Below are positions 3,927-58,980 of a stretch of 64,000 bases of DNA, piece by piece. The stretch's first letter is position 1. The number at the start of each line of letters is the position of its first letter. The notes beneath the pieces were generated by a model, which saw nothing but the letters and a program-made list of their open reading frames with translations, had not been told where the DNA came from and made no database searches. The DNA lies in contig CP058732.1 of NCBI GenBank assembly GCA_013414795.1, forward strand, positions 422,501-486,500. Reading direction: 5' to 3'. The position numbers and the translations under genes are program-made. Origin of the DNA: Candidatus Kapaibacterium sp. (GTDB taxonomy: Bacteria; Bacteroidota; Ignavibacteria; Kapaibacteriales; UBA2268).

Positions 3927-4012
3927 CTACTCCACAACGATGGGGACGGATTCGCTTCCGCCAGCCCAACGCAAAAGAATGAAATAGACGCCAGCGGGCA
4001 CCCCACTGCATT
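3927..4012 (-). repeat. Truncated copy of the sorting-domain cassette (3' end only)
   Basis: Read on the minus strand this encodes the last residues of the array sorting domain, CSGVPAGVYFILLRW through SVPIVVE, followed by a stop. The match with the array copies ends abruptly at 4012, just before what would be the E-W-E-C segment. There is no start codon or long frame, so it is a relic. It lies 46 bp downstream of the stop of the 4059-5048 gene, in the same orientation. Confidence 0.85.
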
Positions 4013-14806: not shown

Positions 14807-15466
14807 ATGAAAAAATATATTATTCTTTTGATTGCAACAATAATTCTTGGCTTTGTAGCAGGGAACAAAGCCAGCGGACAATGTGAATATTGTCAATATC
14901 CCAAAATCTGCAATATTGTAAACTTTAATATTGTATGCAATGGGAATAGTTATCCAATAACAGCGGTGGTTTGTTATGAATGTACTGATCCATTAGTTTA
15001 TAATGTTCAGGTTTTAGAATTCTCATACCCTCCCGAACTCGAGAGGATAATGTATGACACGAATTACCAATATTATAATCCCGCTTGTGAAGATGCAATG
15101 TGGGACAACCTCTGGGCAATAATTCGCAGCAAAGCATTTGAACTTTGTGGATATGTAAATTGTCCAAACAGAGTAACAATTTTAAGGACCATACCAATTT
15201 GTGGTGAATTTATCTATGAAGGACCACCGGGACACGAATTCATTAGAAAAAGGTTTCATCCGGGTACTTGCAACTTACGATGCGTTGTTCGACTAAGCGT
15301 TTGTTACGATTACAATAATCAAACTTTTAATGAGCAGCTTGTCAGTCGAGAATATTTTGGGGTGTGCCCAGACGAAGCTATTTACCCACGCGAGATTTTT
15401 GACCCAACCACCCCCCCATTTAGACTCGAATGTGCCCAATTGTGGTCAACAAGATATTGTCCTTAA
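14807..15466 (+). CDS. Small secreted Cys-rich protein, type A (array unit 1)
   Basis: 219 aa. The signal peptide MKKYIILLIATIILGFVAG is shared with the other small array proteins. The mature part has 16 Cys, beginning SGQCEYCQYPKICNI, the type-A opening, and continuing with an ACEDAMWDNLW helix and a late CNLRC pair. It has no membrane anchor or sorting domain, so it is likely exported to the periplasm or beyond and stabilised by disulfides. It is followed 32 bp later by a type-A large propeller protein, its presumed partner. No known family is recognised. Confidence 0.85.
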   Translation: MKKYIILLIATIILGFVAGNKASGQCEYCQYPKICNIVNFNIVCNGNSYPITAVVCYECTDPLVYNVQVLEFSYPPELERIMYDTNYQYYNPACEDAMWDNLWAIIRSKAFELCGYVNCPNRVTILRTIPICGEFIYEGPPGHEFIRKRFHPGTCNLRCVVRLSVCYDYNNQTFNEQLVSREYFGVCPDEAIYPREIFDPTTPPFRLECAQLWSTRYCP

Positions 15467-15498: not shown

Positions 15499-18057
15499 AT
15501 GAAAAGCAACAATATTTTCAACCGAAGGGGTAAATTATACCCCTTCGGGGCTATTTTGACAATCTGTATGATAATGTTCGCTTCTACACTTGAAGCAAAG
15601 AATTTCGACCTAACACCACTTCGAAACGGCTTCTTTGGTTCTGTTATTATCGACTCTACAATAATAGTTTACGGGGACTTCGGGGTTATTTACCGATCAA
15701 CCGATTTGGGGACAACTTGGAAAATGCATTTGATAGGTGAAGATGCTATTATTCGTCGAATGGAAAATTTTAATGATACACTTTGGGGAATATTAGAAAA
15801 AGGAAGTATTATCCGTTCGACAAATAAAGGAGAAACTTGGGAAATCCTTGCCATTGATGTTCCCCGAAACGAAAGATTTTATTGGTTGCTTATTGATTCA
15901 AACTACTTTTATATTCGTTGTGATAGTTCAATCTTAAAGTTAGATCGGAATTTAAAACTTTTAAAATCAATAACAAATGAATTTCTTAAAATTCGTTGGA
16001 TTGATATTTATTGCGATTGTACATTGTTGAGTCGCGTAAAGTTTCCTACTCCAATTAAATTCTTTTTTGTTTTTGATAAAATCGTTGTTCCGATAAGATC
16101 TTCTAATACCTCTTTGGTAGAATCTTTTTGCGTTATTGACAAGGAATTAAATAATTTGAATTTGGTTACAATTTCTGACAAAATACCCAAACAAAAAGAT
16201 GAAAATTATTTGGCACTTGTGGATATATTTTATTTTGATAATACTTATACTTTTCAATTTATCCCCAGATATGGGCTTTTCAAAACAGATTCAACTTTCG
16301 AAAATTGGCAATGGTTTTTCAAAGATCCTTCTTTTCTAAATTACACATTCGAGGATTCAACCTTAAGATGGCAGAATTATAATAGAGTTGGCAGATCTTC
16401 TTTATTTACTGATAATACTACCCTTTATGGAATTTATAGTGAAATGGTAAAACATATTGTAGATACAATTGGTTCTTTTAAAATCCTATTTAATAAAATT
16501 TGTATTAAAAAATATAAAAGTCAACCCCAAGATACTTTTATAGTAATTGGTAATCCGTTTAAAGATATTTTCTTTGCAACTGTTGAATATAACTACTCCT
16601 ATTACAAACTAGTTAATGACATAATACCGAACCATTTACTCTTACCAAATGTTACAGTAAGCAATAATACCGCTGTTTTTACTTCAAACAATCCAGGAAG
16701 TTATTTAGCACAGGACAAGTTTATCCTTTTATCCCGTAACCAATTTTCTGAATGGGACTTTGTAAATCTTGTCCAAGGGCAACCCTTTTATATTCTCAAT
16801 GACTCAACCTTTTTCTTTGTAAAAGAATTGGAGATTTATAGAACATTTAATAGTGGTATTACTTTTAAACCATTTGAGGCATATACTGAAGGCGACACCG
16901 ATTCATATATTCCAGGCCATCTCAATCTTCGGAGAATTACTCAAATGTACATTGATTCCTCGGGCAAAGGTGTGTTATTAGGTATACCTCGAAATCCATT
17001 CCCTACTAAAACATATAACTTTTTCAAAAATATAGAACATCCAGTTTCTATCCCTTATTATGAAAGTATTCGTTCCTATCCTAATGAGTATCCAACTAAT
17101 ATTTCATTTATTGAAGACCAGTTTCTATTTGGTTTTTATGATACTAGTAGAATTAATTTTAGATATAAAATTTACGTTGGCGACAGTAGTTTCTTACGTT
17201 TCAAATTTATTACATTAGATTCCTTGTTTGCTCCGATGTATCTTGTACCTCGAACAATAAAAGATTTCCTTGCTATTGGCTTGGCAAACTTCAATTCAGA
17301 TACAACATTTGAAATTCGCAACACCACTGATACTGGGCACACTTGGACAACACCAGTTAAGCTCATAAATTTTGGTAAAATCAATCAGATTTATGCACAC
17401 AACCAAGATTCTGTGTTTATTACTTTCACGCAACCCGACAGAGTTTATCTTTACGACAGAACCCGCGATACACTGCAACTTCTTTGGCAACCAGAGACCG
17501 ACGAAGGTCAGAATCCTTTGCTTATGGTCATCTCCGACCGATTTTACCTTGTTGGGAAGGGGCTGTTCTTGGAAAATACTGATAGAAGCGACTTGACACA
17601 GTGGCGCCAAGGCGAATGGGACTACGGCAAGCCAAATTTCGAGAGCGTCATCTTCAAGGGCAATGTTGCAATCGCGGGATTGAGCGATTCGCTCCGTCCA
17701 TTCAACTACTACAAGATTACATTGAAGAAGGGAACTCCATCAAGTGTTGAAACCGAACTCGAGAAGCGGTACTACACGACGAAGTTCTGGGCGAGCGAGC
17801 CGTATCCACAGCCAGCGGGCGTGCGTGTCAAAGCACGAATTGCTTGGGACGGCAGTTTCGATGTTGTCGAAGCAATCGACGGCGTCTACGACTCTATGGG
17901 ACGCAAGGTTGAAGGCAAGGAGAGGATACGGATAACACTTCGGGACAAAGGCTACGGCGAACTGGAATGGGAATGCAGTGGGGTGCCCGCTGGAGTCTAC
18001 TTTGTCCTCTTGCGTTGGGCTGGCGGAAGCGAATCCGTCCCCGTCGTTGTGGAGTAG
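15499..18057 (+). CDS. Large secreted Asp-box propeller protein, type A, with sorting domain (array unit 1)
   Basis: 852 aa. GGAG stands upstream of the ATG at 15499. The signal peptide (GAILTICMIMFASTLEA) is followed by the type-A opening NFDLTPLRNGFFG. Asp-box motifs (S/T-x-D-x-G-x-x-W: STDLGTTW, STNKGETW, TTDTGHTW) mark beta-propeller blades, as in BNR/Ycf48/sortilin-like proteins. The last 180 residues are near-identical to other type-A members, starting at LLMVISDRFYLVGKG. They end in a Por-type sorting domain (YPQPAG, SMGRKVEG, SGVPAGVYFVLLRW, SVPVVVE). The 3' cassette is visibly richer in G+C than the AT-rich body. Predicted T9SS export and surface attachment or release; ligand unknown. 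Confidence 0.85.
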   Translation: MKSNNIFNRRGKLYPFGAILTICMIMFASTLEAKNFDLTPLRNGFFGSVIIDSTIIVYGDFGVIYRSTDLGTTWKMHLIGEDAIIRRMENFNDTLWGILEKGSIIRSTNKGETWEILAIDVPRNERFYWLLIDSNYFYIRCDSSILKLDRNLKLLKSITNEFLKIRWIDIYCDCTLLSRVKFPTPIKFFFVFDKIVVPIRSSNTSLVESFCVIDKELNNLNLVTISDKIPKQKDENYLALVDIFYFDNTYTFQFIPRYGLFKTDSTFENWQWFFKDPSFLNYTFEDSTLRWQNYNRVGRSSLFTDNTTLYGIYSEMVKHIVDTIGSFKILFNKICIKKYKSQPQDTFIVIGNPFKDIFFATVEYNYSYYKLVNDIIPNHLLLPNVTVSNNTAVFTSNNPGSYLAQDKFILLSRNQFSEWDFVNLVQGQPFYILNDSTFFFVKELEIYRTFNSGITFKPFEAYTEGDTDSYIPGHLNLRRITQMYIDSSGKGVLLGIPRNPFPTKTYNFFKNIEHPVSIPYYESIRSYPNEYPTNISFIEDQFLFGFYDTSRINFRYKIYVGDSSFLRFKFITLDSLFAPMYLVPRTIKDFLAIGLANFNSDTTFEIRNTTDTGHTWTTPVKLINFGKINQIYAHNQDSVFITFTQPDRVYLYDRTRDTLQLLWQPETDEGQNPLLMVISDRFYLVGKGLFLENTDRSDLTQWRQGEWDYGKPNFESVIFKGNVAIAGLSDSLRPFNYYKITLKKGTPSSVETELEKRYYTTKFWASEPYPQPAGVRVKARIAWDGSFDVVEAIDGVYDSMGRKVEGKERIRITLRDKGYGELEWECSGVPAGVYFVLLRWAGGSESVPVVVE
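15522..15548 (+). promoter_or_regulatory. Hairpin at small/large junction, unit 1
   Basis: Perfect 11-bp stem CCGAAGGGGTA / TACCCCTTCGG with a five-base AATTA loop. It lies within the first codons of the large gene, 56 bp after the small-gene stop. It is not followed by a clean T-run. Confidence 0.75.
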
Positions 18058-18421
18058 GATTTTGCAAAGAATTTTATTTTCATTTGCATATTTCAAAAAA
18101 TATTTATAATTTGCGAGCAATTAAAGTCGGGAATAGTATGTTGATAGTAGGCGACATAGTAGCTGAGATTATCCAGAAGATACAGCCGATACCTATGCTT
18201 ATTCCATTCAGAGAGAGAGAGAGAGCACATCAACTCAGAGGAAATGGTCTGAATATAGATTCCTACGGCACAAATGTTCCCAATGCCGTGGACCACCAGA
18301 AGGGGAAGGAGAAACCAAGGACTTATACTGTACATAATTCCAAATTTCGTTCTTTGAAATTTGTTATTGTTAAAATTCTTTTAAACAAATATTTTTGTTA
18401 AATCAATAAGGAGAAATTAAA
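18058..18421 (+). repeat. Array intergenic repeat R2, (AG)8
   Basis: Full-length copy between large 1 and small 2. It begins right after the large-gene stop (TTTTGCAAAGAATTTTATTT) and includes an uninterrupted (AG)8 run at 18210-18225. It ends in the promoter and leader of small 2. An open frame reading LIVGDIVAEIIQKIQPIPML and on through RERERAHQL runs through it in the same direction; whether it is translated is unclear. Confidence 0.92.
18366..18397 (+). promoter_or_regulatory. Bacteroidota-type promoter of small gene 2
   Basis: ATTG (18366-18369), 20 bp, TATTTTTG (18390-18397), identical in layout to the copy at 14751. AAGGAGA precedes the ATG. Confidence 0.7.
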
Positions 18422-19027
18422 ATGAAAAAATATATTTTTCTTTTGGTATTTATTTGGCTTATATTCTCCATATCTAATACTGCAAAATCTGATTGTCCAC
18501 CAAATTGGTATCAAAAAACGATCATCTTCTCAATTGGAAACTGCTTATACTTTGCTGATTATTGCTATAAATGTGGAGTAACCGGTCCCGACCCTTCTAA
18601 TGTTAAAGTCACTAAGTACGGAAAGATTCCAAATTTACAATGTGACGACTCGCAAATAACAATAGAAGAAGTAGTTAATGTGATGATGGAACAAATACGA
18701 CAGAAATTTTACCAAGATTGCATCATTCCACCCTGCGAACCATCTACCGAACCTTTAAGGTTTATCGTAGAATATCCTCTATGTCATTATTACATTAATA
18801 GACCCCCTTTAAGGTGGTGGGAAAGCTGTAATTCCGAACAATTTTATTGTCAAAAGGTTAGATACTGTTGTTACTTAAATGGTGAATTGTTTTGCTGGGA
18901 CGGACCAATTCAATCTCAAGGTAATGAATTTAGTTGCAATCCAGGACCGCCTGTTTTACCGCCACCAGGCTCGACGTGGGATGAGGACTGGAATAGTGAT
19001 TGCTATTATGATACTAGTTGCCAATAA
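18422..19027 (+). CDS. Small secreted Cys-rich protein, type B (array unit 1)
   Basis: 201 aa, 16 Cys. Only the first residues of the signal peptide (MKKYIFLLV) match the array consensus, and the rest differs (FIWLIFSISNTAKS). The mature part opens DCPPNWYQ, has CYKCGVTGPDPSNVK in common with the type-B protein at 54305-54892, and ends PPPGSTWDEDW..C..C like the one at 44220-44915. It precedes the type-B large protein at 19088. No known family is recognised; disulfide-rich export to the periplasm or outside is inferred. Confidence 0.85.
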   Translation: MKKYIFLLVFIWLIFSISNTAKSDCPPNWYQKTIIFSIGNCLYFADYCYKCGVTGPDPSNVKVTKYGKIPNLQCDDSQITIEEVVNVMMEQIRQKFYQDCIIPPCEPSTEPLRFIVEYPLCHYYINRPPLRWWESCNSEQFYCQKVRYCCYLNGELFCWDGPIQSQGNEFSCNPGPPVLPPPGSTWDEDWNSDCYYDTSCQ

Positions 19028-19087: not shown

Positions 19088-21499
19088 ATGAAATGGGTAC
19101 TTCTTTATTTGATTTTGAGTTTAATTTGGTCGTTCAATTTTCTTTTTTCGCAAGTTCCGTTCACAGTTGAACGGATTGGAACTGACTATAATGGGGTTAT
19201 CGAAGCAAACGGTAGAATAATTGCATACGGGAACAATGGTGTTCTTACTTTTTCCGATGATTTTGGCGAACACTGGCGTCAGATAAATCTTGGCGAATTT
19301 ATTGACATTTTGAAGATTATAAAAGATGAATCAAATACACTTTATGCACTAACGAGAAACGCGATACTTGTCAGCAAGGATAAAGGCAATTTCTGGGTTC
19401 AAAAAAATATTACCAGCGATAGTGATTTAATCGATGTTGCAATAAAAGACAATTTAATCTATGCAATTTCACCAAATAAAATCTTTATGATTGATAAGGA
19501 ATTTAACAGTGAACCAGGAATATTTCTCGAATTCGATAATTTTACCTACTTTTCTAAAAGTGAAATCATTGGTAATTACCTTTTTGTTGTTGAGTCTGAT
19601 TTCAATATCTTTCGAATTCAAATTAATACAAAGAAAGTAGATACAATAGATATTCGCACAAAATACAATTTTGGTGGCTTATATAAAAGTATTGCAAACA
19701 TCAAAATAAATAGTAATGCCTTATACATTCTTGTTGAGAATGGGAACAACCAAATCCCAACTGAGTTTGATTATACGAACAAGAGACATTTGATACTTAA
19801 ATCCACTGATCTTGGTAATACTTGGGAATTTGTTACTTCTAACATACCGATTACAAAAGATTTTGATATTGATTATGATGGGAGTATTTTCACGCTGGCA
19901 CCCATATTGTTAACTCAAGATAATTTGCGCTATTTTAGTGTCAGTTTTGTAAAAGATAAGGATACAACATTTCAAGAACATATTCAAACTGATTCATCCG
20001 GAATTTGGTTTCCCTATTTCACTGCTGAAGGAGATGGTATACAAACAAAATATGCCTTTAGTTCTATTAGAAAGATTAATGATATAATAATTGCCGTAGG
20101 GAATTACAAAACAATTCTTTTATCAAAAGATGGGGGTGAAAATTGGAAAATGGTAAGTTTCTTTAGACCATTATTTAATAGTGCGGCTGAATTTTATGAT
20201 TTAATTATAAAAGCGGATACTTTTGTTGTTTTAACGGACCAGGGACCAAATTGTTTCGTTTCAACTGATGCTGGTGCAACTTTTGTTCCTATTTCACGTC
20301 AACACTGGATTGAACTTGCTAGGAATTTTTCACTCCAGAGAATGCCTTTAGCATTTCCCAATGGCAACTTTGCATTTGTTGGATGGAAAATCACATCCAA
20401 GGGAAAATTGACAGATACGTTAGTCGCAAAAGTTTCGAAAAACTTCGGCAAAACGTTTTCAACTCTTGAATATCCTATTGGCACAAAAATAATTAATGAC
20501 ACAATCTCTGCCTTGTTTAAATATAAATTTTTCATTAACGACAAAAATAGACTTCTCTTCAGTTTTATTTTGTATAGGGGCTCTGGACCAAAATGGATAT
20601 TTTGTTTTTTTGATACGGACTTTAATTTGGTTGATACAATTTTAATTTATGATTATTATTACTATTTTCAACCCTATGGTGGAGGAATTATTATTTTAGA
20701 TAGTTCCGGGATACATTTTTCATCGGACCTTGGAAAATCAAAAAGTTTGCTTTCTATTCTTCCTAAAAAAAGCTTTTTTAAGAACTATAATGATTATCTT
20801 TCTTATAGTTTATTGGGGATTTTCCGAAATAAAGCCCTGATTCTCGAATCGTCACCTTCAAATAAACAATTGTTAAGTTATGACATCGTGGGAAATTATT
20901 ACGACTCTATTCCTATACCAAATAATATTTATTCTTCTTTCATTATGAACGATACTGTTCTCATTACAACAAATGACACTATTTACATATTTCCCTATTT
21001 TGAAACTAACTTAAAGAATTATTTGGCTTTACCCATAACTCAAATTATTTCCGACGATTTTAAGTTTTTGTCTACTATTAGAAGAGATAATGTCTCTTAT
21101 CTATTAGCATTAACAAAAAGAATCAGTTCTGGTTTTGCATCTGTCAACCAACTGAATTTAGCGATAATTTCTCATAGAAACAATTATTTGAATGTTGAAA
21201 CCGAGGTGGATAAAAATTTTGTATATCTTTTTGCTTATCCGCCGTTCCCAAATCCTGTACATAATTATTTACATTTAAAAGTTTACTGGGATTCCGATTT
21301 TGGCAAAGATAACATTAGTATTTCTATTTACAACATCAAAGGTGAAAAAATTAACAGTTCTTTGGTGAATTTTGTCCCGGAGAACTCATTCAATGGCTTA
21401 ATTGAAATCGATTGTAGTGTTTTGCCCTCGGGTATCTACATTGTTACAATTTCTCTCGCAAATAGGACTATCTCGTTGCCATTTGTTGTTCAAAGATAA
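19088..21499 (+). CDS. Large secreted Asp-box propeller protein, type B, with diverged sorting domain
   Basis: 803 aa. GGAGG stands before the ATG. The signal peptide (LLYLILSLIWSFNFLFSQ) is followed by the type-B opening PFTVERIGTDYNGVIEANG. Asp boxes are SDDFGEHW, SKDKGNFW, STDLGNTW and SKDGGENW. The C-terminal domain is still of sorting type (YPPFPNPVHNYLHLKVYW, YNIKGEKIN, LPSGIYIVTISLANRTISLP), with the canonical PNP motif. It is not the near-identical array cassette. An intact copy of that cassette lies 15 bp beyond its stop. This may show the ancestral C-terminus before cassette homogenisation. Confidence 0.85.
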   Translation: MKWVLLYLILSLIWSFNFLFSQVPFTVERIGTDYNGVIEANGRIIAYGNNGVLTFSDDFGEHWRQINLGEFIDILKIIKDESNTLYALTRNAILVSKDKGNFWVQKNITSDSDLIDVAIKDNLIYAISPNKIFMIDKEFNSEPGIFLEFDNFTYFSKSEIIGNYLFVVESDFNIFRIQINTKKVDTIDIRTKYNFGGLYKSIANIKINSNALYILVENGNNQIPTEFDYTNKRHLILKSTDLGNTWEFVTSNIPITKDFDIDYDGSIFTLAPILLTQDNLRYFSVSFVKDKDTTFQEHIQTDSSGIWFPYFTAEGDGIQTKYAFSSIRKINDIIIAVGNYKTILLSKDGGENWKMVSFFRPLFNSAAEFYDLIIKADTFVVLTDQGPNCFVSTDAGATFVPISRQHWIELARNFSLQRMPLAFPNGNFAFVGWKITSKGKLTDTLVAKVSKNFGKTFSTLEYPIGTKIINDTISALFKYKFFINDKNRLLFSFILYRGSGPKWIFCFFDTDFNLVDTILIYDYYYYFQPYGGGIIILDSSGIHFSSDLGKSKSLLSILPKKSFFKNYNDYLSYSLLGIFRNKALILESSPSNKQLLSYDIVGNYYDSIPIPNNIYSSFIMNDTVLITTNDTIYIFPYFETNLKNYLALPITQIISDDFKFLSTIRRDNVSYLLALTKRISSGFASVNQLNLAIISHRNNYLNVETEVDKNFVYLFAYPPFPNPVHNYLHLKVYWDSDFGKDNISISIYNIKGEKINSSLVNFVPENSFNGLIEIDCSVLPSGIYIVTISLANRTISLPFVVQR

Positions 21500-21513: not shown

Positions 21514-21821
21514 AAAGCCAGGTCGAGAAGAGGTACTACACGACGAAGTTCTGGGCGTCGGAGCCATATCCACAGCCAGCGGGCGTGCGTGTCAAAGCAC
21601 GCATTGCCTGGGACGGCAGTTTCGATGTCGGCGAAGCAATCGATGGCGTCTACGACTCGATGGGACGCAAGGTCGAAGGCAAGGAGAGGATACGGGTAAC
21701 CCTTCGGGACAAAGGCTACGGCGAACTGGAATGGGAATGCAGTGGAGTGCCCGCTGGCGTCTACTTCATTCTCTTGCGTTGGGCTGGCGGAAGCGAATCC
21801 GTCCCCGTCGTTGTGGAGTAA
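21514..21821 (+). repeat. Orphan sorting-domain cassette with sharp boundaries
   Basis: About 305 bp nearly identical to the 3' ends of the array large genes. It starts at AAAGCCAGGTCGAGAAG (the Q-V-E-K position) and stops exactly at the stop codon. The flanks on both sides match nothing in the array, and no intergenic repeat follows. An in-frame ATG at 21585 would give a 78-aa fragment without a signal peptide, so it is unlikely to be a functional gene. Confidence 0.9.
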
Positions 21822-21842
21822 GTTTTTATAATTCGATTAAAC

Positions 21843-21873
21843 AACCCCAAGCAAAACGCTTGGGGTTTATTTT
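21843..21873 (+). terminator. Terminator closing the plus-strand array
   Basis: Perfect stem AACCCCAAGC / GCTTGGGGTT with an AAAAC loop, followed by TATTTTG. It lies 21 bp after the orphan cassette and just before the convergent rluD gene. Confidence 0.85.
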
Positions 21874-21916
21874 GCCTTAAGATAAATTTAAATAATTTTT
21901 GTGGAGTTAATTTGAA

Positions 21917-36418: not shown

Positions 36419-36688
36419 TTATTTGTTCATAAATAAAACCGTGGTTGTGTTGTAAAATTTTCCAGCCGTAAAGCGAACGAAATACACACCGCTGGGCAAG
36501 CCCGTTGCATCAAACACAATCGAATGTTCGCCCGGGTTTAGCTCTCCATCCACCAGCGTTGCCACTTCCCTACCGAGAACGTCGAAGCATTCAAGAGCAA
36601 CAACCCTGCGTTCTGACAAAGTGAAACAAATCATAGTAGTTGTAATAATTGAATTTGTAAAGTTTTGATACAACGCACGTATCACCAA
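36419..36688 (-). pseudogene. Orphan Por-type sorting domain
   Basis: Encodes a complete canonical T9SS C-terminal domain (TTTMICFTLSERRVVALECF, VLGREVATLVDGELNPGEHS, LPSGVYFVRF) but with no passenger or signal peptide. Its frame begins inside the end of the HAF-repeat gene, which already has its own, different sorting domain. It is probably the tail of a deleted secreted protein. Translation is doubtful. Confidence 0.7.
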
Positions 36689-38070
36689 ATCTTACCACAT
36701 AAAATCGGTTCGACCTCCACCACGGTCCCTGCCCGAAACCGACAGAAATAGATGCCCGCTGACAGAACAGGAAGTTCCACATAGTGCACGCCATCTGCAT
36801 ACCAGCCCTCTGCCAAAACTATCTTGCGACCCGTAAGGTCAACCAACTCCAACACTACTGTAGAAGGCTCCGTAAGACGAAAACGCACAGTCCCATTTCC
36901 CACAACTGGCTGTGGGAAGATGGAGAGAAGGAAAGAGGAGATAGGCTCTTCGCCGGCGCTGCTGGCTTGCTCTGTGTCGAGAAGAAACGCCTCTGTTCGC
37001 CCAGTCCTTGCATTGTAGCCAAGACCAACAATAAAGCGTCCTTCGAGTGAAATGTCAGTTGCGCTTAATAACTCCGAGCCATCTTGAAGCAGGTTAATGA
37101 AGACCTCATTCAAGTCTTGCATCCCTGTGGCTGCTGTCCAGCGAAAGGCGCGTCCCTGCCCAGATTCGTTGCCTGCCCACCCGACCACCACACTGCCATC
37201 TGCAGAGACTCCAAGAGCCCTGCTCGATTCCCCGCCAATTGTTCCCAAATCCTGCATACCCGTGGCGGCTGTCCAACGAAAGGCATGGTCCTGTCCAGAG
37301 GCATGGTTTGCCCATCCGACCACCACACTGCCATCAGCGGATACACTATTAGCATAACTCCAACCCTCACCAGTCAATGTACCCAGGTCCTTCATACCCG
37401 TGGTGGCTGTCCAGCGAAAGGCACGCACCCACCCAAAGGCGTTCTCTGCCGTGCCAACCACTACACTGCCATCAGAGGAAACATCATTAGCCCAGCTATT
37501 TCCCCCGCCAATCAATGTTCCCAAGTTTTCCATTCCTGTGGTGGCTGTCCAGCGAAAGGCACGCACCCACCCAAAGGCGTTCTTTGCCTCGCCAACCACA
37601 ACACTGCCGTCTGCGGAAACGCCATAAGCCAAGCTTTCATCCCCACCGAGGGATCCCAAGTCTTCCATTCCTGTGGCGGATGTCCAACGAAAGGCGCGTC
37701 CCTGCCCAGATTCGTTGTTTGCCCATCCGACCACCACATTGCCATCTGCGGAAACTCCATAAGCACTGCTTAAATCCCCACCTAAGGCACCCAAGTCTTG
37801 CATTCCTGTGGCGGATGTCCAGCGAAAGGCGCGCCAATTCCCAGAGGCGTTCTTTGCAAATCCAACCACAACACTGCCCTCAGCGGAAACACCATGCGCC
37901 CAGCTCCCATCCCCGCCGAGTGTGCCCAGCCAGGTAAGTGATTGAGCCTTTAAAGAAACCGATAAGAGTATACCGCCGAGAAAGAAACACAAAGTAAACA
38001 GCCCCAACGAAAGCATTAATCTTTGCACAAACATTTGAGAAACGCAAGAGAAAACTCTTGGAGATATCAT
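36682..38070 (-). CDS. Secreted HAF-repeat protein with sorting domain
   Basis: 462 aa from the ATG that overlaps the upstream stop (ATGA at 38067-38070). The signal peptide (LMLSLGLFTLCFFLGGILL) is followed by about seven tandem repeats of 47-48 residues of the form LGxLGG..S.A.GVSADGSVVVG followed by A..RAFRWT..TGMQD. These are HAF repeats, thought to build an extracellular beta-propeller. The C-terminus is a Por-type sorting domain (IFPQPVVGNGTVRFRL, LTGRKIVLAEG, LSAGIYFCRF). It is probably one transcript with the propeller/Fn3 gene. The function of HAF proteins is not established. Confidence 0.87.
   Translation of the reverse strand: MISPRVFSCVSQMFVQRLMLSLGLFTLCFFLGGILLSVSLKAQSLTWLGTLGGDGSWAHGVSAEGSVVVGFAKNASGNWRAFRWTSATGMQDLGALGGDLSSAYGVSADGNVVVGWANNESGQGRAFRWTSATGMEDLGSLGGDESLAYGVSADGSVVVGEAKNAFGWVRAFRWTATTGMENLGTLIGGGNSWANDVSSDGSVVVGTAENAFGWVRAFRWTATTGMKDLGTLTGEGWSYANSVSADGSVVVGWANHASGQDHAFRWTAATGMQDLGTIGGESSRALGVSADGSVVVGWAGNESGQGRAFRWTAATGMQDLNEVFINLLQDGSELLSATDISLEGRFIVGLGYNARTGRTEAFLLDTEQASSAGEEPISSFLLSIFPQPVVGNGTVRFRLTEPSTVVLELVDLTGRKIVLAEGWYADGVHYVELPVLSAGIYFCRFRAGTVVEVEPILCGKIW
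37095..37930 (-). repeat. Tandem ~141-147 bp DNA repeats encoding HAF units
   Basis: Six to seven consecutive units share long blocks at DNA level, for example the CACTGCCATC and TGTCCAGCGAAAGGC segments recurring at each unit. The units differ mainly in the A-N-x-x-S-G loop. The DNA similarity implies recent tandem duplication or slippage. Confidence 0.85.
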
Positions 38071-41000
38071 TTTAGTACCAAAATTTTTATTTGTTGTACA
38101 TAACCATCTGCTTGCAAGCGAATGAAATACACGCCGCTGGGCAAGCCCGTTGGCTTCCAATTGACTTCGTGGTGACCGCTTGGTAAGTTTTGGCTTAGCA
38201 ATGTTGCAACTTCGGTTCCAAGAGCATTGTATACTTTAATTGTCACAAAACTTGGTTTCGGCAATTTGAACTCAATTGTAGTTGAGTTAACGAAAGGATT
38301 GGGTCGGACGCTTAAAATTCCTTTTCCCTCCGTTTCCTGGGGTTCCGTTTCTTGTTTGGAGGACAAGCCCGAAATTGTGAAACTCCAAACTTCCGACCAA
38401 GGTCCAGTGTTAGTAGAATTAGTAGCGTCGACGCGCCAATAGTAAGTTTTATTTTCTGCAAGTCCACTAATTGTTACCGATGTATCTGTTAAATCTGTTT
38501 TCTCAAATTCTTTTTTTAAAAATATTTTGCTTGTGGAAACTTGAACACGATAGGTAAGGGCTCTTTTATTAAGTCTCCATACCAATGTTATTTCATTTGG
38601 ATCAACAGTTGCTCCGTTGGGAGGGGAGACAAGTATAGGAGCATCGGGAGGAAAGATAATTGCTTTGAAACTCCAAACTTCTGACCAGTCGCTGGTTCCA
38701 CCCGAGTTGCTGGCATTAACTCGCCAAAAGTAAACCACCCCTTCTAACAATTCACTCACAATCTGAAAAGTATCGGTTATACCACTTTTATCAAACACTG
38801 TTGTAGAGAAATCTGGAACCAGAGAGATTTGCAAACGGTAAGAGGTAGCATATTGAGAGGAGTTCCAAACGAATTTTGCATCAATTGTGGCAACATTCTC
38901 GCTGTTGTTTGGTGGTGAAACAAGTTTTGGTGGTTTTGGCTGGTACCAAATTGCTTTGAATCTCCAAACTTCCGACCAGTCGCCAGTTCCCGCTGAGTTA
39001 CTTGCATTTACCCTCCAATAATAAACAACTCCATTTGAAAATTCACTTGCTACTTGAAATGTGTCTTTTATATCGCTTTTATCGAATACTATTGTAGAGA
39101 AATCTGGAGTAGTTGAGATTTGCAAACGGTAGGAAGTTGCGCCTCTCGAAGAGTTCCAGATGAATTTAGCGCCAACAGTAGGAACTGTCCAAACATTATT
39201 TTGTGGCGAAACAAGTTTCGGGGGCTTTGGCGGAGTCAAAATAGTTTCAAAACTCCAAACTTCTGACCAGTCGCTAATAAAATCTCCCTTTTTTGCATTC
39301 ACTCTCCAATAGTAAACGAAATTTGGCTCAAGAAAATCAATTGCAAAGGATGTATCCTTTAATCCGCTTGTATCCAAAATTGTGGTTTGAAAACTTTTGT
39401 TCGTAGAAACTTGCAAACGGTACGATGAACTACTATCAACGGAATACCAGCATAGGGTTGTATAATAGGGAACACCATAAGTTCCATTTGGGGGCGAAGC
39501 AAGTTTTGGCGGTGGTGGGAATTTTAGCTCGCTTAGAGGTCTTTTAAAAACGCTATTACCAAAAGTCCCGGCAAACAGCATAGAATCGAGTATTGAGAGT
39601 GATTGCACATATAAGTTTTTCAACCCATCGTTTATCGGAAACCAAGTACTACCCTTGCTAACAGACATATATACTCCGTTTTTTTCCGTCCCAGCAAAAA
39701 CCATATTGTCTTGGGTAAAGATTGAAGAAATTTTTACATTAACAAGATCCGATTTCAACCAAGTTTCTCCGTTATCGGTAGAAAAGAAAATACCAATACC
39801 ACCACCAACAATAGTGTTTCCAACAACAGCCACGGCATAGGCGTTATCGCTTGTAAAACCATTCTTCACTTGTTCCCAACTTTCCCCAAGATTGGTAGAA
39901 CGATACACAGCGCCCGTTTCGGTTCCAGCAAAAAGGATTGTATCTTTTACAGCGAGGGAATAGACTCTTGTGTAATTCAAACCATAGTTCACTGGCCACC
40001 AACTTTCGCCGTTGTCGGTCGAGCGCCAAATTCCACCATATGTTCCAACAAAAATGTTCGCATAAATAAATGCAAAGGAAGAGCAATATTTTTTTGGAAA
40101 ACCATTATTGATTTCTTTCCAACTTTCCCCGTTGTCGGTCGAAACAAAAATACCGCTTCTTTCTGTTCCAAGATAAATGCTTGAGTCGTGAACAGCAACA
40201 ACTGTACAATTTAGATTTGGAAAGCCAATTGACAACTTTTTCCAACTTTTACCCAAATCTTTGGAAACATATAAATTCCCGCCGGCGACAGAAAACAAGT
40301 TCTTCTCTTTGATTGCAATTGAAAGAGCATTCAACGCTGGAAGTCCAACGGGGAGCCAGTTTTCCCCATTGTTTGTGGAACAATATATTCCATACTCTGT
40401 TCCAGCAAAAATTTTTGTCCCCCTAACTGCCACAGACCATACACGAAGATTGCCCAATCCATTGTTGATTTGCCTCCAACTTTCACCAAAATCCGTTGAA
40501 ATGAACACTCCCCCAAGTGTTCCAGCCAAAAGATATTGTCCAAAATATTCCAAGGATAGCACCCGAGTGTCGGTCAATCCATTGTTGACTTGCCTCCAAC
40601 TTTCTCCATTGTCAGTGGAAACGAAAACGCCATCGTTGCTTCCAGCAAATATCCTATTTCCAACGTTAATTATAGACCAAACCAAAGTTTTAGATATTCC
40701 ACGGTCCAATGTTCGCCAAGTTTCGCCAAGGTCTGTTGAAAGCAAAAACCCCCGCTCCCAAGTCCCAGCAAATAGATTTGAACCAATTGCCTTCAACGAG
40801 GTTACAGATGCGCTTTTAAGATTTGTCTCTACCCAACTTTCCCCATTATTGCTCGAAATATAAATGCCACCTCCGCCAGTACCAGCAAAAACATATTGGC
40901 CAAGTGTTGCCAACGATAGAATCAAGCCGGTCTTCAATCCCTTGTCGACTTTCTTCCATTCCTTACCCCAGTTGGTTGAAATATAAATTGCGTCGAATTG

Positions 41001-41288: not shown

Positions 41289-41812
41289 TTTTACCCCCTA
41301 CAATTTTTTACATTGTTAAAACGATAAATTAATATATTTTTTGCTTTGATATGCTATTATAATAAAAAATTTACAACTTGCGTCCGACGCAATCCGAACA
41401 TTTGGATTCACCAAGCAAATCCAATAATATATAAAATCGATTAGTTTCGTTTTGTTTCACCGAAAAGAAAAATGGTTGCTTTGAACTTTCTAATATCTTT
41501 GTTGTTCTATTTATCAAGAAAACATCAAAAAAGATGAGAACTTTACTAAGACGAAAAGTAAAGTCAGTTTACATACAAACAATATCTTTTGTAAATAAAA
41601 ATCCTAAACCATTACTTATAAAGAAACACTGGTATTTTATCAAAAATACTTTTTCGAAGCAAATTATTAATGTCAATCTTAGAGATGTATCTTCTGGATA
41701 TTCTCGGCTAATATGTTGTCTACAATCAACATAATATTCTCGACTTTAATTGCCCCCAAATTATAAATATTTTTTGAAATATGCAAATGAAAATAAAATT
41801 CTTTGCAAAATC
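41289..41812 (-). other. Gap at the left end of the second array, holding a truncated repeat
   Basis: Positions about 41685-41812 match the stop-proximal part of the array intergenic repeat (GATGTATCTTCTGGATATTC on the plus strand to the large-gene stop). The repeat is cut before the (AG)n run and promoter part. The remaining 400 bp are AT-rich. I see no gene, RNA or strong terminator in them. Confidence 0.8.
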
Positions 41813-44146
41813 CTACTCCACGACAATTGGGACGGATTCGCTTCCGCCAGCCCAACGCAAAAGGATGAAGTAGACGCCAGAGGGCACCCCACTGCATTCC
41901 CATTCCAGTTCGCCGTAGCCTTTGTCCCGAAGTGTTACCCGTATCCGCTCCTTGCCTTCAACCTTGCGTCCCATCGAGTCGTACACCCCGTCGATTGCTT
42001 CGCCGACATCGAAACTGCCGTCCCAGGCAATGCGCGCTTTGACACGCACGCCCGCTGGCTGTGGATACGGCTCCGACGCCCAGAACTTCGTCGTGTAGTA
42101 CCTCTTCTCGACCTGGCTTTCAACAGAACTGGTATTTGCTTCTTTAACTAGATAAGTGTAGGAAGTATTAGCTGTTGTATCAATGAAAAATAAAGCAAAC
42201 AAATTAGTGTCAAAATTTGAGGGTATAACAGTAAGAGGTATTGCTTGCTCGTTTGAAATTTCGAACTCCTTAAAATGGATTTTATCTTCAAAAACATAAA
42301 TCTTAAAATATATTTTAGTAAAATCAAATCGATTTTTTGTATAAAATACTTTGTTCCCAACCTTAAAGATAGCGTAGGGGACATAATCGGTTGTATCCGT
42401 TTCTATCAAAGTAAACTCGTTGGTTTCTGGATTAAAATAGTATAAAACATCGAAAGAGGATTGAGTATTAATGTTAAATAAATTGAAATCAAGGTAAATA
42501 TCATCACCGATTGCCCAGGTTTTGAAGTTTGACAGGTCCCATTGAGAATTTAACCAATATTCTTTGAAAACTTCAATGGAATCCCAAGTTAAACCAAGAT
42601 TGCTTGATTTAATAATCCAATATGAAGGTTCACCATAGGTTACACCTTTAGGTCTTGCAATAGAAAAGCCAACAATGTAATTTTTGGTTTTTTGGGGATT
42701 AAAAATTTGCCGAAAAAGTGAGTAAGATTTTTTATAGAAGGAAAAATTTTTATCCAATTCCCAAACGATGAACCAAATGCCATAATCCGACATTGCATTG
42801 TTCGTAAAAACGAGTAGCTTATCACCAAGTGGAACGGTATAATATGAATCTTCTAAATAGTTAAAGTCAGTGCTATGTTCCAACTTTAAAGTTTCACCTT
42901 TGTCACGAGTTGTTATTATATTTGAGTCTGTTGATAATTGTTTTCTTTGAACTGATATTCCGTTTTGTGTATCAAAAAAATAATGAAACATTTCCTGGTA
43001 AGGATTGAACTGAGTCAAAATTTTGTAGGGATAATTTTTTGTTGGCAACCAAGTCACTCCTCCATTTGTTGTATAAAAGAAATTGTGGTAATTGTCTATT
43101 GCTCGTAAATTTAACGAATCGATAATGAATAAATTTTGGGAAGTTAATGGAAAAGCACCAAAGGACTTAACAGCCCAAGTTTTACCCCCGTTGCTACTAA
43201 AACAAACAAACTTACCATACCCCACGGCAACAACTACGCTGTCATCCACAAACTTTAATTTACTAAATGTAGATCTAACAACTCTTCGGTCGAAACTGGA
43301 AGTATTTAGTTTTTCTTTACCTGGTGTCAATTTGAAGAAAATAAGGCTATCCAGATTAACATTTGTCCAAGAAGAATAAATCAGATATAAATTTCCTTTC
43401 CAAAGTGTAAAAGCAGAACTATTTGGATTATTTAATTTTTCAATTAAAGTAAAATTCTGGTTGGCGAAATTGTATCTGTAATAAAAGTTTTTAACGAGAA
43501 AATAAAAATAATTATCGTCAGATAGAAATTTAGATGGAAGGTTGCAATCTGTGCATACATTATTCTGTTTTAAATCGATTATTTTGGTTTCTTTATTTTG
43601 AATATTAATCAAACCAATTTTACCGTTTCCAATTGGATATATAATTTTATTGTTTCCAACAACAAATTCATAAGAATTTGTATCTTTTGTATAACTGAAT
43701 TCTTTTACAAGATTAAAATTTGTGTCGAGCATTTTAAACTTGCTATCAGTCATATAATAGAAATAGTTTTTATACCAAAAACCTCGATAGATAGTTTCTT
43801 GCTCGTTCAATACGAATAATTCCCAGGTTCTCCCTTCGTCTTTGGAAACTATTGCAAAGTGTTTATTCAAAAAGCCAACATATTTTTGACCAACATATTC
43901 AAGCCAAACAATGGAATAATCATCTAAAATTACTTTTCGTTCCCAATTATTACCCATATCGGTAGAACGAATCACTTCATTGGTGTTACCCCATAAAAGT
44001 ATTGATTTACCGCTCGAGGCAATACCAACATACTTATACACTATTAAATTCTTTTCAAAACCTTTGATAATATCAAGTTCAGAATGAAGATTAATGTTTA
44101 TTGCCACAAGAATTAAAAAAACAAAAAATGACTTAAAAATTCTCAT
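41813..44146 (-). CDS. Large secreted Asp-box propeller protein, type B-like, with cassette sorting domain
   Basis: 777 aa. AGGAGGTG stands before the ATG. Signal peptide MRIFKSFFVFLILVAININL. The N-terminal region has Asp boxes STDMGNNW, SKDEGRTW and SSNGGKTW, and lacks the type-A F-D-L-T-P opening. It shares with the array only the last ~100 codons, starting at S-Q-V-E-K-R-Y-Y, and lacks the type-A-specific LLMVISDRFY block. It follows a type-B small gene with a hairpin in the gap. Its body is the most divergent of the large proteins, so assignment to type B rests partly on its partner. Confidence 0.82.
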   Translation of the reverse strand: MRIFKSFFVFLILVAININLHSELDIIKGFEKNLIVYKYVGIASSGKSILLWGNTNEVIRSTDMGNNWERKVILDDYSIVWLEYVGQKYVGFLNKHFAIVSKDEGRTWELFVLNEQETIYRGFWYKNYFYYMTDSKFKMLDTNFNLVKEFSYTKDTNSYEFVVGNNKIIYPIGNGKIGLINIQNKETKIIDLKQNNVCTDCNLPSKFLSDDNYFYFLVKNFYYRYNFANQNFTLIEKLNNPNSSAFTLWKGNLYLIYSSWTNVNLDSLIFFKLTPGKEKLNTSSFDRRVVRSTFSKLKFVDDSVVVAVGYGKFVCFSSNGGKTWAVKSFGAFPLTSQNLFIIDSLNLRAIDNYHNFFYTTNGGVTWLPTKNYPYKILTQFNPYQEMFHYFFDTQNGISVQRKQLSTDSNIITTRDKGETLKLEHSTDFNYLEDSYYTVPLGDKLLVFTNNAMSDYGIWFIVWELDKNFSFYKKSYSLFRQIFNPQKTKNYIVGFSIARPKGVTYGEPSYWIIKSSNLGLTWDSIEVFKEYWLNSQWDLSNFKTWAIGDDIYLDFNLFNINTQSSFDVLYYFNPETNEFTLIETDTTDYVPYAIFKVGNKVFYTKNRFDFTKIYFKIYVFEDKIHFKEFEISNEQAIPLTVIPSNFDTNLFALFFIDTTANTSYTYLVKEANTSSVESQVEKRYYTTKFWASEPYPQPAGVRVKARIAWDGSFDVGEAIDGVYDSMGRKVEGKERIRVTLRDKGYGELEWECSGVPSGVYFILLRWAGGSESVPIVVE

Positions 44147-44915: not shown

Positions 44916-44938
44916 TTTTTCCCTTTCTTTTTGTTATA

Positions 44939-44970
44939 CAAAAATAAATTTTCCAAAGAATTTTTACAAC
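44939..44970 (-). promoter_or_regulatory. Bacteroidota-type promoter
   Basis: Minus strand: GTTG (44970-44967), 20 bp, TATTTTTG (44946-44939), upstream of the small gene at 44220-44915. The spacer sequence differs from the plus-strand array while its length is kept. Confidence 0.7.
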
Positions 44971-44984
44971 AACAATTGTCAAAG

Positions 44985-45271
44985 AGCGGATTTGGATTTA
45001 AGTCGAACGCATATCAACTTCTTTCTTCTCCTTCTGGTGGTCCACGGCATTGGGAACATCTGTGCAATAGGAATGTATATTCAGACCATTTACTCCGAGT
45101 TGATGTGCTCTCTCTCTCTGAATGGAATAAGCATAGGTATCTGCCGTATCTTCTGGATATTCTCGGCTAATATGTCGTCTACAATCAACATAATAAACCC
45201 GACTTTAATTGCTCGCAAGTTATAAATTAATTTTTCAAATATCCAAAGAAAATAAAATTCTTTGCAAAATC
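44985..45271 (-). repeat. Array intergenic repeat R3, (AG)6
   Basis: Full copy between the 878-aa large gene and the small gene at 44220. The dinucleotide run is (CT)6 on the plus strand at about 45108-45119. The open frame crossing it is shifted by this length and ends at EREHINSE. Confidence 0.92.
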
Positions 45272-47908
45272 CTACTCCACGACAATTGGGACGGATTCGC
45301 TTCCGCCAGCCCAACGCAAAAGGATGAAGTAGACGCCAGCGGGCACCCCACTGCATTCCCATTCCAGTTCGCCGTAGCCTTTGTCCCGAAGTGTTACCCG
45401 TATCCTCTCCTTGCCTTCAACCTTGCGTCCCATCGAGTCGTACACCCCGTCGATTGCTTCACCGACATCGAAACTGCCGTCCCAGGCAATGCGCGCTTTG
45501 ACACGCACGCCCGCTGGCTGTGGATATGGCTCCGACGCCCAGAACTTCGTCGTGTAGTACCTCTTCTCGACTTCGCTTTCAACTGTTGTCGGCGTTTCCT
45601 TCCAGAGAGTAATTTTGTAGTAGTTGAATGGACGAAGCGAATCGCTAAGCCCAGCGATTGCAACATTGCCCTTGAAGATGACGCTTTCGAAATTTGGCTT
45701 GCCATAGTCCCACTTGCCTTCCCGCCACTGTGTTAAATCGCTTCTATCGGTATTTTCCAAAAACAGCCCCTTCCCAACAATGTAGAATCTGTCGGAGATG
45801 ACCATAAGTAACATATTTTCTGCAACTGAATCTTCGTATAACAATTTTAGTGATTTACTTTTGACTTCAAATAAATACAATCTGTGTGGATATGAGACCA
45901 CAAAAAATATTGAGTCCTTATTGTGAACATAATATTGCATTAGATCAAAGTTTCTATCAAACGAAAATAAAACAGTGCTTGTTTTACCGCTATCGAAAGA
46001 TTCGCGTATTTGAAAATTTTGATAATATTTAGGATTACTTGAATCGCAAACAATGGTGAATAAAATTAAGTGGCTGTGATTTATAGGAAAAACTTGGTTA
46101 ACCATTTGAAACTCGGGTGTTATTATTTTATCAACTTTTTTAAAAGAAGTATCTAAAAAGTAAATTTTGGTATGGTACCATTTAGCAGGATACTCGTAAT
46201 CTAATAAAGGAAAAATATACTTACCATCAAGTTTTTCAACCTTTGGTGGCAAAAGTTGGTTGGTATAAGTCCTGATTTTTAAAGAAGAATCAAACTTAAA
46301 ATGTTTACCGTAATCAGTAGTATAAGCAAAATTTAATAAAGCATAACCTCGAAAATCATCATTTGTACCAATAAAAAATCCTCTACCCGAACTATCAATG
46401 AAAAAAGCACTTGTCTGTTTAAATATGGCAAAGAAGGTTACAGTATCATAATTTTCATAGACAATATTCTTTATATTTCCTAAGGAATCTACCTCAGCAA
46501 TTCTCCTATAAAGAGTGTCGAGCAACAATTCAGTTGGTTGAAAAGTAATTCCACCGTCGAAGGAAACCGATGTATTATTGTAGTATGGTAATCTGTTTAA
46601 GAAAATAAAGGTAGAGTCATTCAAAATTAGCTCGGGAAAATGTGCTGCATTGCAAGATGTCAAATTCCAATTAAAACAACCGTCTCGGGATTGAATAATA
46701 GTTTTATACAATCCGGGAATAATTACAATAGAATCACCAACAAAAGATTTTCTTTTAGTAAATAGGTATCTTGTAGCATTGACTCTAGGGAAATATATCC
46801 CAGGTACATAAGCAATGCTTCTATCGTTAAAATGATTTCTAAATTTTACAAAATCACAGAATCTGTCTGTTTCATCTTTAATGTATTCCTTAAAATATAA
46901 TTTTATAGGACTAAGCTCAAAATCATTTATCGATAATTCACTAGGAATATATTTACCATCAGATGCAAAATTTATCACCATAAAAAGTTTATTGTTCCAA
47001 AAGAAATATTCATCTTGATATTCTCGCCAGGGCCATTTACTCCACTGATTTGGGTCATTGTTATTTAAAAAGGCGGTGTCAACAAATAAGAAGTCCCATC
47101 TTGAATGCACATCCTCTGTTTTGAATATGGTTCGGGCATTTGTTGAAATTATTAATATACTATCAAAAGGAAATAAGTAATTTATCATTTCATAATTTTG
47201 TGTGTTAATGTATCGATTAGTTGGCAAGGTGTCTAATTTGTTCAAATCATAATCTATTAGAATGAGGCCACGATAATATTTTCCTGATAAAAACAATAAA
47301 TCTCTCTTAAACTTAAAAATCTCATTGTGTGAATAATAGATACCATCTTTGAAGGTGGGTATTGGGTTTTCACTAAAATCATTAATAATATAGTTATTTA
47401 TATACAAAAGGGTATCCTTAATACTATTAATTAATTGCAAATTTTTATCAAATTTATATAATCCTTTATTAGAGCGAATAAATAAACAATCCACGGTTGG
47501 CAAAATGTAATAGAGTTGTTCATCGGGCTCGAGTGTTATCTCTTTCTTAAACCAATTATTTCCTTCATCGAATGAAAAAATTACAATCCCACAGTCTAAA
47601 ACACCCCACAGAGTATCTTTGTAACTCGTTATGTGAAGAATATTCCCGTATGGATGCGCGGAATATTCTTGCCAACTTTTGCCAAAATCTGTTGAAAGCA
47701 AATAAGAACCATTGGAACCATACACAAAAATTTTGTCTTTAAATACCGTAGCACCGTAAAAATGAATATTCATTGGGGTTAGGTCGAAGTCAAAAGAATA
47801 TAACCGCAAATTTTGAACTATCAACATCATTAGGATTATTAACATCTTGACATCTGTATTCTTCTTACTTTTCTTGTTTACAAATATCATTTTCATAGTA
47901 GCACCCAT
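45272..47908 (-). CDS. Large secreted Asp-box propeller protein, type A, lacking a small partner
   Basis: 878 aa from the ATG at 47908; further ATGs follow at codons 5 and 7 and none has a strong ribosome-binding site. Signal peptide (KMLIILMMLIVQNLRLYS), then the type-A opening FDFDLTPMNIHFYGA. Asp boxes STDFGKSW and SFDEGNNW. The last ~180 residues are the type-A block (LLMVISDRFYIVGKG) plus the sorting cassette. Upstream is an intergenic repeat but no small Cys-rich gene and no copy of the promoter, so this unit looks incomplete. It may be expressed by read-through or not at all. Confidence 0.83.
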   Translation of the reverse strand: MGATMKMIFVNKKSKKNTDVKMLIILMMLIVQNLRLYSFDFDLTPMNIHFYGATVFKDKIFVYGSNGSYLLSTDFGKSWQEYSAHPYGNILHITSYKDTLWGVLDCGIVIFSFDEGNNWFKKEITLEPDEQLYYILPTVDCLFIRSNKGLYKFDKNLQLINSIKDTLLYINNYIINDFSENPIPTFKDGIYYSHNEIFKFKRDLLFLSGKYYRGLILIDYDLNKLDTLPTNRYINTQNYEMINYLFPFDSILIISTNARTIFKTEDVHSRWDFLFVDTAFLNNNDPNQWSKWPWREYQDEYFFWNNKLFMVINFASDGKYIPSELSINDFELSPIKLYFKEYIKDETDRFCDFVKFRNHFNDRSIAYVPGIYFPRVNATRYLFTKRKSFVGDSIVIIPGLYKTIIQSRDGCFNWNLTSCNAAHFPELILNDSTFIFLNRLPYYNNTSVSFDGGITFQPTELLLDTLYRRIAEVDSLGNIKNIVYENYDTVTFFAIFKQTSAFFIDSSGRGFFIGTNDDFRGYALLNFAYTTDYGKHFKFDSSLKIRTYTNQLLPPKVEKLDGKYIFPLLDYEYPAKWYHTKIYFLDTSFKKVDKIITPEFQMVNQVFPINHSHLILFTIVCDSSNPKYYQNFQIRESFDSGKTSTVLFSFDRNFDLMQYYVHNKDSIFFVVSYPHRLYLFEVKSKSLKLLYEDSVAENMLLMVISDRFYIVGKGLFLENTDRSDLTQWREGKWDYGKPNFESVIFKGNVAIAGLSDSLRPFNYYKITLWKETPTTVESEVEKRYYTTKFWASEPYPQPAGVRVKARIAWDGSFDVGEAIDGVYDSMGRKVEGKERIRVTLRDKGYGELEWECSGVPAGVYFILLRWAGGSESVPIVVE

Positions 47909-47969
47909 AACGATTTAAAATTTTTCAAAATTAATTTTAAAATTCAAAATAAGTTACTCTATAGCAAAC

Positions 47970-47992
47970 TTAATTAATTATGAATTAATTAA
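47970..47992 (-). promoter_or_regulatory. AT-rich perfect hairpin upstream of the lone type-A large gene
   Basis: Ten-base stem TTAATTAATT / AATTAATTAA with a three-base loop, 62 bp upstream of the start, at the place where paired units carry a hairpin. Confidence 0.5.
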
Positions 47993-47998
47993 CTTTAC

Positions 47999-48254
47999 CT
48001 TCTTCTCCTCCCCCTTCTGGTGGTCCACGGCATTGGGAACATCTCTGCCATAGGAATATATATTCAGACCATTTCCTCCGAGTTGATGTGCTCTCTCTCT
48101 CTGAATGGAATAAGCATAGGTATCGGCTGTATCTTCTGGATATTCTCGGCTACTATGTCGTCTAATATCAACATAATAAACCCGACTTTAATTGCTTGCA
48201 AGTTATAAATTAATTTTTCAAATATCCAAAGAAAATAAAATTCTTTGCAAAATC
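47999..48254 (-). repeat. Array intergenic repeat R4, (AG)6, without small gene or promoter
   Basis: Begins at the 846-aa gene stop and is intact through the (CT)6 run (about 48091-48102) and the CCTTCTGGTGGTCCACGG segment. It then ends, where the other copies continue into the promoter and small-gene start. The break suggests deletion of a small gene here. Confidence 0.9.
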
Positions 48255-51387: not shown

Positions 51388-51410
51388 TTTAATTTCTCCC
51401 TTTTGTTAAA

Positions 51411-51442
51411 CAAAAATAATTGTTTTAAGGTTTTTTTACAAA
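51411..51442 (-). promoter_or_regulatory. Bacteroidota-type promoter
   Basis: Minus strand: TTTG (51442-51439), 20 bp, TATTTTTG (51418-51411). A perfect -33 element. Confidence 0.75.
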
Positions 51443-51737
51443 TTGTCAAAGAGCGGAAGTGGATTTAAGTCGAACGCTTTTCAACTTCTTCTCCTCCCCT
51501 TCTGGTGGTCCGCGGCATTGGGAACATCTGTGCCATAGGAATCTATATTCAGACCATTTCCTCCGAGTTGATGTGCTCTCTCTCTGAATGGAATAAGCAT
51601 AGATATCGGCTGTATCTTCTGGATATTCTCGGCTACTATGTCGCCTAATATCAACATAATATTCTCGACTTTAATTGCTTGCAAGTTATAAATTAATTTT
51701 TCAAATATCCAAAGAAAATAAAATTCTTTGCAAAATC
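51443..51737 (-). repeat. Array intergenic repeat R5, (AG)5
   Basis: Full copy between the type-B large gene (stop at 51738) and the small gene at 50779. It has the shortest uninterrupted run, (CT)5 at about 51576-51585. The crossing frame stays open (FRERAHQLGGNG). Confidence 0.92.
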
Positions 51738-54892: not shown

Positions 54893-54916
54893 TTTAATTT
54901 CTCCTTATTGATTTAA

Positions 54917-54948
54917 CAAAAATATTTGTTTAAAAGAATTTTTACAAT
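54917..54948 (-). promoter_or_regulatory. Bacteroidota-type promoter
   Basis: Minus strand: ATTG (54948-54945), 20 bp, TATTTTTG (54924-54917), followed by AAGGAGA before the small-gene ATG. Confidence 0.7.
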
Positions 54949-55253
54949 AACAAATTTCAAAGAACGAGATTTGGAATTATGTACAGTATAAGTCCTTGGT
55001 TTTTTCCCCTTCTGGTGGTCCACGGCATTGGGAACATCTCTGCCATAGGAATATATATTCAGACCATTTCCTCCGAGTTGAGGTGCTCTCTCTCTCTCTC
55101 TGAATGGAATAAGCATAGGTATCGACCGTATCTTCTGGATATTCTCGGCTAATATGTCGTCTACAATCAACATAATATTCTCGACTTTAATTGCTCGCAA
55201 GTTATAAATATTTTTTGAAATATGCAAATGAAAATAAAATTCTTTGAAAAATC
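54949..55253 (-). repeat. Array intergenic repeat R6, (AG)8
   Basis: Full copy between the 867-aa large gene and the small gene at 54305, with (CT)8 at about 55086-55101. It shares with R1 and R2 the promoter-proximal segment ACTTATACTGTACATAATTC. Confidence 0.92.
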
Positions 55254-58549: not shown

Positions 58550-58572
58550 TTTAATTTCTCCTTATTGTTAAA

Positions 58573-58604
58573 CAAAAATAATTGTTTTAAGGTTTTTTTA
58601 CAAA
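58573..58604 (-). promoter_or_regulatory. Bacteroidota-type promoter
   Basis: Minus strand: TTTG (58604-58601), 20 bp, TATTTTTG (58580-58573). Perfect match to the -33/-7 pattern. Confidence 0.78.
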
Positions 58605-58886: not shown

Positions 58887-58980
58887 ATTTTGCGTTGGGG
58901 GTGTAAAAGAATTTTCATTTACAACAAATCTTGGTTTTTTCTATTTTTGAAAATTAGATTTAATTAGAAATGGTTTGAAT

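Follow-up and report, generated by a model that had tools for sequence, protein, structure and literature searches.

A sorting tail stranded behind a secreted-protein gene in Candidatus Kapaibacterium is probably the leftover 3' end of a lost array unit

Introduction

The silent donor loci of antigenic variation, such as those of the pilS/pilE and vls systems, are promoterless partial gene copies that lie near expressed relatives. The locus described here resembles them in that a free-standing copy of a sorting tail is likewise a promoterless piece of a gene close to expressed relatives; it differs in that this copy holds the conserved end of the gene, is nearly single, and is only a candidate for donation. 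For cargo of the type IX secretion system (T9SS), a report on Porphyromonas gingivalis (PMC5266723) describes domain rearrangement and allelic exchange at hagA, rgpA and kgp, with adhesin domains shuffled inside genes. The two cases are alike in having type IX cargo genes with identical repeats in common, which are rearranged among genes and break assemblies; they differ in that adhesin domains are shuffled there, whereas in the present arrays the middles diverge between homogenised leaders and sorting tails. Unlike P. gingivalis, the present lineage consists of hot-spring and other environmental metagenome-assembled genomes (MAGs). We found no account of homogenised or stranded type IX tails in the literature searched.

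The tail itself is closest to the type A sorting tail of the type IX system (PF18962/TIGR04183). As in that family, the present tail is C-terminal in nine genes, is about 80-100 aa long, and has motif positions in common with the tail of the 803-aa protein encoded just upstream; its beta-rich structure model, with Ig-like matches, may be a further likeness. Unlike curated members, it scores below the family cut-offs, and its free copy is attached to no protein.

Results

The window analysed here is a stretch of 64,000 nucleotides (positions 422501-486500) of a Candidatus Kapaibacterium sp. genome that is assembled as a single contig of 2.66 Mb. At 21514-21821 of its forward strand stands a copy of a sorting tail with neither gene body nor signal peptide; its 308 bp comprise 100 intact codons and a TAA stop, with no frameshift or stop inside, which bears out a free copy of about 305 bp picked out in an earlier note on this DNA. 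The copy was correctly placed behind the 803-aa gene, from whose stop codon (21497-21499) it is separated by 14 bp rather than the 15 bp given. It lies in a different frame from that gene, and a TAG stands upstream at 21504 in the copy's own frame. A read-through or frameshift product of the 803-aa gene is ruled out by this TAG and by the two in-frame TAA codons with which the gene ends. Given the stop just upstream and the lack of a signal peptide, continued translation of the copy is unlikely and probably no exported protein is made from it. Inspection by eye found no Shine-Dalgarno-like sequence just before a possible GTG start at 21585, and an Rfam search of the whole window returned rRNA only.

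Genome-wide, the stranded copy has 12 matches including itself, nine of which form the ends of open genes. Among the 11 other places, seven match over 298-307 bp at 94-96% identity, and partial matches cover 185 bp at 94% (an 860-aa gene), 212 bp at 75% (1.884 Mb) and 85 bp at 95% (3928-4012), the shortest being 32 bp at 174903. On the reverse strand of the window, tails of this type end genes of 777 aa (41813-42120), 878 aa (45272-45579), 846 aa (48255-48562) and 885 aa (55254-55561); the 860-aa gene has a mosaic tail (51738-51923), which is of the cassette type in its last ~185 bp only. The gene copies, nine in all, stand at the end of a secreted protein; the stranded copy does not, having an in-frame stop upstream and no body.

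The earlier note read the copy as a cassette with exact edges, running from a Q-V-E-K position to the stop codon. That start is nearly right, but the DNA common to the copies begins 5 bp ahead of the QVEK codons. The left edge is sharp: in 50-bp blocks 5' of 21514, no more than 14-38% of the bases agree with the end of the 846-aa gene. As a fixed module boundary, however, it fails, in that the tails of other genes begin elsewhere. Counted along the stranded copy, the tail starts at base 1 in this copy and in the 777-aa gene, which have the same left edge, at base 44 in the relative of the 777-aa gene in a congener (G003), and at about base 120-123 in the 860-aa gene; in six full genes, the 846-aa reference included, tail similarity already sets in ~550 bp ahead of the stop. 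No other tail has upstream sequence that matches the 14 bp preceding the left edge, and the breakpoint therefore cannot be placed. Short direct duplications at both edges, a check that the note had proposed, do not exceed chance; the longest common words are 6 bp, a length that 610 and 715 of 2000 shuffles also attained.

The right edge does not fall at the stop codon as claimed. Blastn aligned 21514-21878, stop codon included, to the end of the last gene of a related array at 2.03 Mb (92% with gaps), and the similarity takes in a hairpin terminator, AACCCCAAGCAAAACGCTTGGGG, at 21843-21865 (+). Allowing up to 2 mismatches, the genome has this hairpin at exactly two sites, behind the stranded copy and after the final full gene of the 2.03-Mb array. 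The stretch from stop to hairpin differs between the two places; what was kept or moved may therefore be no more than the terminator.

The genome encodes a T9SS, with a sortase model hit (NF033707) of 773 bits, over cut-off, and about 98 type A sorting tails over cut-off. The stranded cassette reaches 12.3 bits, against cut-offs of 27 (Pfam PF18962) and 23 (TIGR04183); this is below both, yet it is the cassette's sole family match, and all 17 of its 17 aligned relatives match PF18962 at E values up to 1. The structure model of the cassette (pLDDT 77.5) has beta strands throughout, and its top Foldseek matches are mostly Ig domains, none at E <= 0.001.

The upstream neighbour (19088-21499, +) encodes an 803-aa secreted BNR-repeat protein of propeller type, a label based on BNR-type hits only; its structure model is poor (pLDDT 54). 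The earlier note credited this protein with a sorting domain of its own, unrelated to the cassette. The domain is there (~21245-21496; 36.1 bits to Por_Secre_tail, PF18962, cut-off 27); it is not unrelated but a distant member of the cassette's sorting-tail family, 23% identical to the stranded cassette in a common alignment. Directly ahead lies the gene of a small Cys-rich secreted protein of 201 aa (18422-19027, +), whose first ~8 codons fall within the array leader. The best relatives of the 803-aa protein are encoded by an 812-aa gene elsewhere in the same genome (39%) and, in congener G001, by an 806-aa gene (37-40%). Ahead of the latter we found a piece like the C-terminal half of the 201-aa small gene (38% over 94 positions) and no relative of its N-terminal half. 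The 806-aa gene has its own tail and is followed by an opposite-strand gene, with no cassette between. This matching arrangement suggests a long-standing partnership of the small gene with the 803-type gene, which has its own tail in both species. Since the congener's 803-type gene, with partner and own tail, has no cassette, the cassette would belong to a lost neighbour or slot.

Both genes sit in one of two opposed arrays, each built of units of a leader, a small Cys-rich gene and a gene for a protein of ~800 aa. The forward array (14.3-21.9 kb), flanked by ribD and rluD, comprises a first unit with a 219-aa small partner (14807-15466, +) and an 852-aa gene (15499-18057, +; tail in frame at 17759-18057), then a conserved intergenic leader with a (GA)n tract (18058-18421, +) and the 201-aa and 803-aa genes. 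The reverse array covers 41.8-58.9 kb; further units lie at 2.03 Mb and diverged ones at 1.88 Mb. Within the conserved block upstream of the unit genes, the (GA)n tract is 10-18 bp long and varies among units, making slippage-driven expression switching possible. Other leaders with the tract lie at 44916-45271, 47909-48254, 51388-51737, 54893-55253 and 58550-58960, with more outside the window (L013 8664-9029; L014 6231-6610); the 14.3-kb leader is without a clean tract. At L014 6231-9094 (genome 1.884-1.887 Mb), a leader and an apparent small-gene signal-peptide start run directly into an 833-aa large gene, which looks as though it has captured a 5' end without the small gene. The opposed arrays also carry an inverted repeat (17380-18307 and 55004-55931; 928 bp, 90% complementary), through which the intervening ~37 kb, with household genes, could invert.

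Leaders and tails are alike across units and the middles are not, the six other large proteins of the window being 16-30% identical to the 803-aa protein over their whole length. A PHI-like site-compatibility permutation gave a recombination signal of 0.004 over the eight full tails of this genome, a set without the mosaic tail of the 860-aa gene, the copy at 1.88 Mb or the 85-bp piece. In a pairwise run test of 28 pairs, none survived correction; the lowest uncorrected p was 0.037, in a pair without the stranded copy. The pattern of concerted evolution shows in congener G003, where identity among four tail stretches (three of them at contig ends) is 93-98%, against 76-81% to the stranded copy. 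Tail GC is 57-59% in eight of nine copies and 52% in the mosaic one, with GC3 about 0.69; gene bodies have 30-32% and conserved leaders 32-35%. GC-biased gene conversion is not supported as the general cause of the GC-rich tails, because the leaders are also alike yet only 32-35% GC.

The stranded copy carries two private changes, one synonymous and one from stop to stop (TAG to TAA), and none that is nonsynonymous; the eight other copies compared have 0-13, the 860-aa gene being counted from base 120 only. Mean pN/pS between the stranded copy and six coding tails is 0.0088/0.168, and among those six 0.0105/0.127. Neither mean includes the tail of the 852-aa gene, with which alone the stranded copy gives 0.029/0.194. 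With no pile-up of nonsynonymous changes, either the stranding was recent, or the copy has been overwritten from expressed copies, or translation, unlikely as it is, has continued.

Other pieces of this kind occur in the genome. The 85-bp match (3928-4012, -) is a stranded piece of tail that follows a 338-aa gene from outside the array family, and a truncated leader, 127 of 388 bp (41686-41812, -), forms another scar behind the last unit of the reverse array. Within 36419-36691 (-), at about 36419-36640, a sorting tail of another subtype lies without a body, behind a 492-aa gene (36682-38160) with its own tail, and a tail fragment sits within a 72-aa frame at 1.288 Mb; among the 117 tail matches listed, these two sites are the ones in open frames of under 100 aa. 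At L084 2449-4517 (genome 128 kb), a large gene is followed by a sorting tail in another frame, an apparent frameshift.

In all four congeners ribD and rluD were located on different contigs, never together nor beside a joining unit. A relative with a full gene at this position, the case by which the earlier note would have been refuted, was not found, the locus being syntenic in none of the four, and the loss is thus not seen directly. Beyond the genus, a DNA search for the tail found none in 31 other genomes of the family and, at the level of the order, one 25-bp match among 24 genomes. A scan of the relatives' contigs yielded seven tail loci, most of them interrupted by contig ends, so that isolated copies cannot be counted. 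The relatives with the tail are MAGs labelled Bacteroidetes/Chlorobi group, Ignavibacteria and Candidatus Kapabacteria; the first of these presumably comes from a hot-spring mat.

Discussion

We consider the stranded cassette to be what remains, at the 3' end, of a secreted-protein gene whose body was lost from the terminal unit of the array, a reading to which we give a probability of roughly 0.7; the copy is most likely a recombination scar from deletion or replacement of the rest of the neighbouring gene. Of the three origins offered in the earlier note, a remnant left by the removal of another gene is the best supported, by the retained array-terminal terminator and by the comparable scars elsewhere. 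Such retention, in which surroundings of the lost gene persist, indicates that the copy is the tail and terminator of an array-terminal gene without its body. A standard leader stands upstream, so that leader and terminator mark the two ends of an array slot whose interior is different. In the course of events that we propose, recombination, probably gene conversion, would keep leaders and sorting tails nearly identical while the middles diverge, and at the array end the body of the terminal unit would have been lost. A deletion may have fused the region behind the 803-aa stop to the tail of the next gene; by another route, the 803-aa unit may have replaced a resident unit between its leader and its tail. 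Because the 803-aa gene kept its own tail, the old tail lies stranded out of frame, with its terminator, which may still end the transcript of that gene.

Alternatively, tail and terminator may have been copied behind the 803-aa gene from an array-terminal gene by ectopic gene conversion or break repair. The recombination signal among the copies, the terminator's company with the tail in both places, and the 85-bp piece behind a gene outside the array family would all fit; we nonetheless think this unlikely, as the left flank offers no homology to guide the copying, and as both the standard leader upstream and the truncated leader behind the reverse array would go unexplained. Another suggestion of the earlier note was a silent donor for gene conversion. 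A maintained donor of this kind, renewing the tails of expressed genes in the manner of the silent loci of antigenic variation, would account for an intact copy without decay, for recombinant haplotypes common to the copies and for the six gene tails in the window as possible targets. It is a candidate role, though a less probable one still: after correction, no tract among the 28 pairs is traceable to the stranded copy, expressed genes are able to donate to one another, and donating tails would bring little diversity, tails being the conserved part.

Two further explanations are less probable again. An assembly error at a repeat is very improbable; the tail is indeed a repeat of ~300 bp, within or next to which several draft contigs of the congeners break off, but the left junction has no detected common sequence to mislead an assembler, and the genome is a single contig. 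The least probable is self-insertion of a discrete mobile unit, ~305 bp long and exact at its edges, as the remaining suggestion of the note had it. Although the sharp left edge coincides to the base with that of the 777-aa gene, left edges vary among the other copies, similarity crosses the stop into the terminator, and no target-site duplication beyond chance is found.

More speculatively, and we rate this as improbable, the arrays might serve surface display, with recombination making both ends uniform, the leader with its signal-peptide start and the sorting tail. Were this so, any middle set between the standard ends would be exported, and stranded tails would be failed or unfinished swaps that may still serve as templates; the system would then amount to antigenic-variation-like shuffling in a free-living lineage, aided by the variable (GA)n tracts of the leaders.

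For annotation, the locus warns that open reading frames consisting of a single sorting-tail domain can be relics and not small secreted proteins. As a marker, the stranded copy, a young example of such a scar in that it has not begun to decay, suggests that array units are gained, lost and joined at their common ends, and that the sorting tails of type IX cargo undergo concerted evolution within a species.
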